Of a stretch of DNA of 14,100 bases, positions 1,979-2,069 are shown piece after piece (within the stretch, counting starts at the first letter, position 1; every line of letters begins with the position of its first letter). Source of the stretch: Sulfitobacter sp. (GTDB lineage Bacteria > Pseudomonadota > Alphaproteobacteria > Rhodobacterales > Rhodobacteraceae); assembly GCA_024636405.1 (NCBI GenBank), contig JAGXHC010000039.1:1-14100 (forward strand), given 5' to 3'. The position numbers were made by a program, and so were the translations under genes. The notes beneath the pieces were generated by a model. That model was not told the DNA's origin. It did no database searches and saw only the letters and a program-made list of their open reading frames with translations.

Positions 1979-2015
1979 AAAAAAACGACCACCGGGATCT
2001 AACCCGGGGCCGTTT
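1979..2015 (-). terminator. Intrinsic terminator upstream of the GTA genes
   Basis: On the minus strand a GC-rich stem of about 12-13 pairs (arms 1983-1996 and 2003-2015, one bulged base, 6-base loop) is followed directly by seven T (1979-1985 read on the minus strand; the first pairs of the stem overlap the tract). This is a textbook rho-independent terminator. It lies downstream of the promoter at 2041-2069 and upstream of terS, so it stands in the path of any transcript from that promoter into the GTA genes. Confidence 0.8.
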
Positions 2016-2040
2016 GCCCACGTCTTCTAGCATGTCACAA

Positions 2041-2069
2041 GGTGTAGTTCAGACCGTTCGCAAAGTCAA
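2041..2069 (-). promoter_or_regulatory. Candidate sigma70-type promoter for the GTA genes or a leader RNA
   Basis: On the minus strand TTGACT (2064-2069) and TACACC (2041-2046) are separated by exactly 17 bases, close to the sigma70 consensus. The predicted start is near 2035. The first gene downstream is terS at 1933, with an intrinsic terminator in between. Two CtrA-like boxes sit just upstream of the -35 element. Confidence 0.6.

Follow-up and report, generated by a model that had tools for sequence, protein, structure and literature searches.

A conserved terminator-like hairpin just past the GTA promoter of Rhodobacteraceae, a candidate gate for GafA-modified RNA polymerase

The promoter and the hairpin ahead of terS

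How does RNA polymerase that starts at the GTA promoter reach the GTA genes when a terminator-like hairpin stands in its path? The question is raised by the minus strand of the window (the whole stretch of 14,100 nucleotides analysed here), on which two genes that are, judging by their translations, a fabF-like gene and mltG are followed by the start of an RcGTA-type cluster (terS, terL). Between the promoter and terS lies T1, a hairpin with a U7 run (minus strand, 2015-1979), which lies ~20-56 nt into the predicted transcript and is separated from terS by 45 nt. A sequence-only reading of this DNA had placed a strong rho-independent terminator here, about 20-55 bases past the start and about 45 bases from terS; both the sequence features and the distances held up on re-examination. 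T1 has the makeup of an intrinsic terminator, with a GC-rich hairpin, a U-run directly after it and both on the transcribed strand. The features of the region are as follows (A1 and A2 are the leader alignments described below).

2069-2064, minus strand: -35 element of the GTA promoter, TTGACT; TTGAC unchanged in all 54 A2 leaders
2063-2047, minus strand: 17-nt spacer, TTGCGAACGGTCTGAAC, with a CGnACGGTC-like element conserved in the A2 alignment
2046-2041, minus strand: -10 element TACACC, weak; mostly TATAGG, TATAAC or similar in relatives
~2034-2033, minus strand: predicted transcription start
2033-2024, minus strand: conserved initially transcribed element, ATGCTAGAAG, just past the predicted start
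2024-2019 (GACGTG) with 1979-1974, minus strand: P0, a basal stem around the hairpin and U-run
2015-1983, minus strand: P1, the T1 hairpin (5' arm AAACGGCCCCGGG 2015-2003, loop 2002-1997, 3' arm 1996-1983)
1985-1979, minus strand: U7 tract closing T1, where a ~56-nt RNA is predicted to end
1971-1963 (CTCGGTTGG) with 1955-1948 (CCAACGAG), minus strand: P2, a tentative hairpin by the Shine-Dalgarno sequence
1950-1944, minus strand: Shine-Dalgarno sequence of terS, GAGAGGT
1933-1589, minus strand: terS, RcGTA g1-like small terminase, 114 aa, ATG at 1933
1722-310, minus strand: terL, GTA large terminase, 470 aa
1581-1552, minus strand: T2, a terminator-like hairpin (1581-1557) and T-run inside terL
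288-267, minus strand: weak T3-like site after the terL stop, GGCCCTCCAGGGGGA followed by T7

A GC-rich inverted repeat also lies between mltG and the promoter (~2173-2135, plus strand); its CTTTTCG is found on the plus strand and not on the minus, which suggests a plus-strand terminator rather than that of mltG.

The window by itself made T1 only moderately unusual. A loose terminator pattern occurred 21 times, compared to 15.2 ± 4.1 in shuffles, which is not unusual, and the 101-nt stretch 1960-2060 folded no better than its shuffles (z = -0.17). Under a strict rule (hairpin ≤ -18 kcal/mol and at least 6 T in 7), with both strands searched, the window held two sites, compared to nine in total in 100 dinucleotide shuffles, eight of which had one or more. 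T1 was the stronger of the two (-21.2 kcal/mol), and the other was T2 (-18.3 kcal/mol). The decisive evidence is comparative.

Conservation of the unit and constraint on its RNA

A terL search of a species-genome collection gave 571 confirmed candidate loci, the best 80 of which were kept (terL identity 70-86%). In 78 of 81 sequences, window included, tblastn at a permissive E-value placed terS no more than 500 nt from terL. One locus (L016) ends before the leader region and was excluded, leaving 79 usable leaders plus the window. Of these 80, 73 could be aligned on the hairpin (A1, window included); L007, L008, L045, L060, L066, L072 and L080 were left out with the hairpin absent, degenerate or unalignable, and at the last four of these the hairpin or U-run is lost. 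A1 retains three leaders with a poor U-run (L030, L048, L075) and three with the promoter consensus absent or varied (L006, L009, L022). A2 was made of 54 of 70 leaders after reduction of near-duplicates and removal of the latter three. Invariant in A2 are TTGAC, the spacer G at A2 position 11, the A of the -10 element and, within ATGCTAG, the G and T of GCT, this last pair within the ATGCTAGAAG element being invariant across A1 as well; the C at A2 positions 10 and 14 is conserved to at least 90%. The spacer element stands where Q or GafZ would bind and may likewise bind a protein, and the ATGCTAGAAG element, judged by eye, is a candidate sigma-pause (-10-like), loading or second activator site.

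T1 follows the -10 element by ~25 nt at near-constant spacing, and a covariance model spanning the -35 element to P0 (R1; cut-off E ≤ 0.01) found this arrangement throughout the family. R1 matched in 213 of 295 Rhodobacteraceae genomes, once in 206 and twice in seven (G028, G106, G132, G198, G214, G252 and G264). An RcGTA-like capsid was present in 232 of the 295, 183 of which also had an R1 match and 49 of which had the capsid only; 30 genomes had the leader only and 33 neither. Five capsid-only genomes were inspected: three had diverged leaders with weak R1 scores (L093-L095), and the other two gave no R1 match at E ≤ 1 (L092, L130). All 16 loci taken from the genus of G052, which includes SB1003 and has 17 capsid-positive genomes, were matched. 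In an independent set of 27 IMG/VR contigs (23 distinct) retrieved by an 18-base leader string, TTGAC stood at the expected distance in 25 and the hairpin and T rule was passed by 22. The T1-promoter unit thus belongs to the GTA promoter and is conserved as a unit.

The stems have also changed in a compensatory manner. P1 (13 pairs) was paired in 94.9% of cells over 72 distinct leaders, with double changes at 10 of its 13 pairs, and P0 (six pairs) in 94.7%, with double changes at two pairs, one of them in 21 sequences; P2 (eight pairs) was paired in 75.4%, with double changes at six. For the whole structure 89.0% of cells were paired, compared to 83.0% in shuffled and 38-51% in slid controls, and 113 cells carried double changes compared to 27.3 and 30-51, respectively, counts that are inflated by shared ancestry. 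All five whole-structure measures exceeded every one of 500 shuffles. The slid controls were far below the real alignment in paired percentage, double-change cells and covariation score, but only somewhat below it in further pair types (55 vs 36-45) and double-change pairs (18 vs 12-17). When wobbles were read on the terS strand, P1 had 79 G-U and 6 A-C combinations and P0 122 and 2, respectively, while the asymmetry of P2 was weak (81 and 48). This combination of compensatory changes with wobbles of the G-U rather than the A-C kind indicates that the terS-sense RNA is constrained. The sequence-only reading had asked whether the hairpin, compensatory changes included, is conserved upstream of terS in relatives, and the 73 of 80 leaders with their covariation answer that it is. 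The T1 loop had also been considered as a tRNA T-arm (CCGGGTTAGATCCCGG), an idea that we rejected with the loops being unrelated in relatives.

RNAalifold, run on the same alignment, predicted P1 and a version of P0 that shares four of its six pairs and adds two inner ones; it did not predict P2 on the leader alignment. The 3' strand of P0 is made after the U-run, so that P0 is complete only in read-through RNA. RNA released at the U-run is too short to form P0. Termination there therefore leaves the conservation of P0 unaccounted for, and P0 may have a role in the read-through RNA or in a second-chance release. At one diverged locus (L095, 1446-1579) P1 has been replaced while the P0 strands are kept (GACGTGAG/CTCACGTC), which suggests an independent role of P0. 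P2, which reads CTCGTGCG/CGCATGAG in many relatives, may modulate translation.

More distant loci were taken from a class-wide draw of 20 regions upstream of terL. Two of these were already in the family draws (G216, where R1 matched L129 at 2e-5, and G300, where L130 gave no match), leaving 18 with a terL identity of 48-56%. R1 was weak in these (L113, 0.0017; L117, 0.013; L128, 0.52; L122, 0.59). A scan of the 500-nt stretch upstream of terS/terL (hairpin ≤ -13 and a T-run) found a sense hairpin and T-run before terS in five of the 18 (L116, L117, L122, L127, L128) and none in antisense; the other 13 had no such site in the stretch scanned. In L116 and L117 the site directly follows a GTGACACGCTGAGAG block much like the start region of the family, in L122 and L127 it directly follows AT-rich promoter-like sequence, and in L128 it lies ~160 nt past a TTGACA promoter-like site. 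With these five sites, the weak R1 hits cannot be taken to mean that the arrangement is restricted to Rhodobacteraceae. In L113, L120, L126 and L128 the GTA promoters have TTGAC, an ACGSTC-like spacer element and an AYGCTC-like motif ~24 nt later, a pair that is possibly a direct-repeat activator site.

Downstream terminator-like sites and the start in R. capsulatus

T1 is not the only terminator-like site in the path of transcription. We scanned 72 of the 73 leaders (L018 being too short) from the -35 element over up to 6.5 kb, 453,323 bases in all, for a hairpin ≤ -15 with at least 6 T in 8. T1 passed this rule in 68 of the 72 sequences; the T2 window contributed 26 sense sites and the remainder 22, compared to four sites in antisense. 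Nineteen of the 22 lie at 1800 to 1940 nt past the -35 element, just past terL (T3).

T2 lies ~450-480 nt past the predicted start in the window, within codons for ..EGELRALPFLF... At 59 of the 97 loci compared, its hairpin was stronger than 95% or more of 40 synonymous recodings (mean -15.8 vs -9.2 kcal/mol), and in the main register all 10 positions were paired in 45 of 97, with one pair seen as A-U, G-C and C-G. By a separate rule, 37 of 75 loci have a T-rich tail after T2, chiefly those of Sulfitobacter, Roseobacter, Ruegeria and Tateyamaria. The synonymous null was beaten in none of four Rhodovulum loci, in one of 10 Roseovarius loci and in three of 15 loci of the SB1003 genus (L102, L103, L105), each of these three without a T-run. 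Under a looser rule that admits doubtful hairpins, 44 of 95 loci had a T3 no more than 140 nt past the terL stop, and some relatives have strong T3 terminators between terL and the next gene (L046, L071, L105, L110). T2 with a T-run is therefore lineage-restricted and T3 patchy; the window has T1 and T2, and its T3 is weak. A polymerase that met such terminators one after another would need processive antitermination to make the long operon.

The SB1003 genome of R. capsulatus, whose capsid is 100% identical to PDB 6tb9, has the promoter-T1 unit (R1 E = 4e-18) and, upstream of its GTA promoter, a separate terminator-like hairpin and T-run of mltG. The distances below assume that g1 starts at ATGGACATGGGG, as implied by the primers given in PMC6854486.

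R. capsulatus promoter, relative to the g1 ATG: -35 element from -129; -10 element at -106 to -101; ATGCTAGGAG from -94
R. capsulatus T1, relative to the g1 ATG: hairpin from -76; U-run from -51

The predicted -10 element, an RNA-seq-supported start and GafA binding of RcGTA have been placed 76-125 bp upstream of g1 (Fogg 2019, PMC6363796), and binding of GafA-C in the same region (Sherlock and Fogg 2022, PMC9638019). The hairpin begins at -76, which puts the published start ahead of T1 and makes the DNA bound by GafA-C border directly on the hairpin. The prior claim that transcription from the GTA promoter must pass the terminator is thereby supported. It would have been refuted by a transcription start lying between T1 and terS, which the published start contradicts in R. 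capsulatus (PMC6363796).

A candidate GafA-dependent gate and its alternatives

We consider it fairly probable that T1 is a promoter-proximal gate of the Q/GafZ kind, passed only by polymerase that is modified there, probably by GafA. Polymerase that started without the activator, or that leaked in from upstream, would halt at T1 and release the ~56-nt RNA. The activator, most likely GafA, would bind the spacer and start region and load onto the early elongation complex, and the loaded complex would then be able to pass T1 as well as terminators further on, T2 and T3 among them. We infer both termination at T1 in vivo and antitermination by GafA. GafZ is an antiterminator in Caulobacter, the C-terminal half of GafA is homologous to it, and its authors suggest that GafA may be an antiterminator too (PMC11150451); the proposal of the sequence-only reading that read-through would call for antitermination thus has a precedent. 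The arrangement that GafZ/GafA-type antitermination calls for, a terminator between the promoter and the bulk of the GTA genes, is what we found. Q depends on two sites, one in the DNA between -35 and -10 and one, resembling a -10 element, in the initially transcribed region (PMC6606751). Conserved blocks stand at both of these places here; by eye, the resemblance of ATGCTAGAAG to a -10 element is moderate. It is the serial terminators, the absence of a visible RNA switch, the GafZ and Q precedents and the blocks at both places that together favour a GafA-loaded, Q-like gate. A more specific version, in which GafA is initiator and processive antiterminator in one, loads within the first 20 nt and alone lets polymerase pass T1, T2 and T3, with P0 as part of the checkpoint and with validity for the RcGTA family and some distant GTAs, appears plausible to us at somewhat below even chances.

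The alternative that deserves most weight, although we regard it as unlikely, makes T1 a passive brake or insulator against mltG read-through and weak initiation, with GafA only raising initiation and a fixed fraction of polymerase reading through. This would agree with the reported action of GafA through the RNAP omega subunit (PMC9638019) and with the place of mltG directly upstream on the same strand, where 38 of 58 loci show no terminator-like site belonging to mltG. However, T1 lies inside the transcript, ~25 nt past the -10 element, while the distance from the mltG stop to the -35 element varies from 24 to 303 nt; T1 is also kept in the 20 loci where mltG has a terminator-like site, and the extra sense terminators would lower the yield further without antitermination. 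The same 20 of 58 loci (by a loose rule; R. capsulatus included, 13 of the 20 in the SB1003 genus) bear on the simpler idea that T1 is just the terminator of mltG, the next gene upstream on the same strand. Because mltG has a separate site ahead of the promoter in these loci, pure mltG read-through is unlikely as what the hairpin ends, a possibility that would have undone the earlier reading, and the position of the hairpin tracks the promoter and not mltG; we give this idea almost no credence.

Other alternatives place the function in the RNA. The hairpin could be mainly a 5' structure of the read-through mRNA, serving stability or RNase III processing, with the U-run secondary. P0 pairs across the U-run and co-varies, and L095 retains the P0 strands with P1 replaced, as such a role would predict, but most leaders retain a U-run (68 of 72 by the strict rule) that would be dispensable for processing, which leaves this improbable. 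We hold it still more improbable that promoter and T1 form a small-RNA gene, with the GTA genes relying on read-through: its own promoter, a conserved start region and a strong terminator would indeed yield a defined ~56-nt RNA, but Rfam gave no match above the gathering score in the window, L041, L064 or L096, and the conserved bases ahead of the hairpin may equally be DNA sites. An attenuator had been part of the earlier proposal; attenuation by RNA only, through a riboswitch or leader peptide, found no support. In 49 of 73 leaders an ATG coincides with the predicted start and could hint at a peptide, but the other 24 have AAG, ACG or GTG; the leader with the 5' arm folds no better than mononucleotide shuffles (mean -6.67 vs -7.61 kcal/mol), and neither an alternative RNA antiterminator pairing nor a conserved translated leader peptide was found in the 73 leaders. 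Such a mechanism is very improbable.

Returning to the GafA-dependent gate, its nearest known counterpart is PgtaT of Caulobacter crescentus, where GafY resembles the N-terminal part of GafA and GafZ its C-terminal part, an element lies between -35 and -10, and one or more early-operon terminators must be passed (Tran and Le 2024, PMC11150451). The Caulobacter terminator terGTA consists of three 150-bp repeats downstream of the first gene, with the start codon at +251 (PMC11150451), whereas T1 is a compact U7 hairpin ~20-56 nt past the start and has a basal stem, P0, that spans the U-run. The spacer element here also differs from the published palindrome GCGCCCG-CTGGCGC, and activator-dependent read-through has been measured for Caulobacter GafZ (PMC11150451), while here the gate is proposed from sequence. 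Lambdoid late promoters under lambda Q or 21Q likewise combine spacer and initial-transcript blocks with an intrinsic terminator before the late genes (PMC6606751), although the GafZ models are reported to have no similarity to known antiterminators (PMC11150451). Antitermination also controls the Bartonella BaGTA, judging by the title of Korotaev, Niggli and Dehio (2025).

GTA antitermination and Q-like gates are thus already known as a kind. The lambda terminator tR' is much further from its promoter than T1 is from the GTA promoter. Among the hits inspected in full-text searches of open-licence papers, we found no description of a promoter-embedded, family-wide leader terminator with P0, or of the T2/T3 series. 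Activation by GafA of RcGTA, the model gene transfer agent, has been described as promoter activation through RNAP omega (PMC9638019); since a conserved terminator follows the start in R. capsulatus itself, the 2024 suggestion of antitermination by GafA is directly testable there. If true, a lethal operon would be kept tightly off by two locks, initiation and termination, both opened by one protein, and GTA control in Rhodobacterales and Caulobacter would be unified. For expression that differs from cell to cell, the strong positive feedback reported at gafA itself (Fogg 2019, PMC6363796) is a more direct candidate than T1.

GafA homologues are annotated as DUF6456 (PMC9638019). This domain was found in five of six relatives searched, the sixth being a MAG without it, and in the Caulobacter control. 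Among the genomes of the four T1-losing loci (L060, L066, L072, L080), three keep DUF6456, and none was found in the fourth, a MAG. GafA therefore does not require T1, and the gate can be lost.
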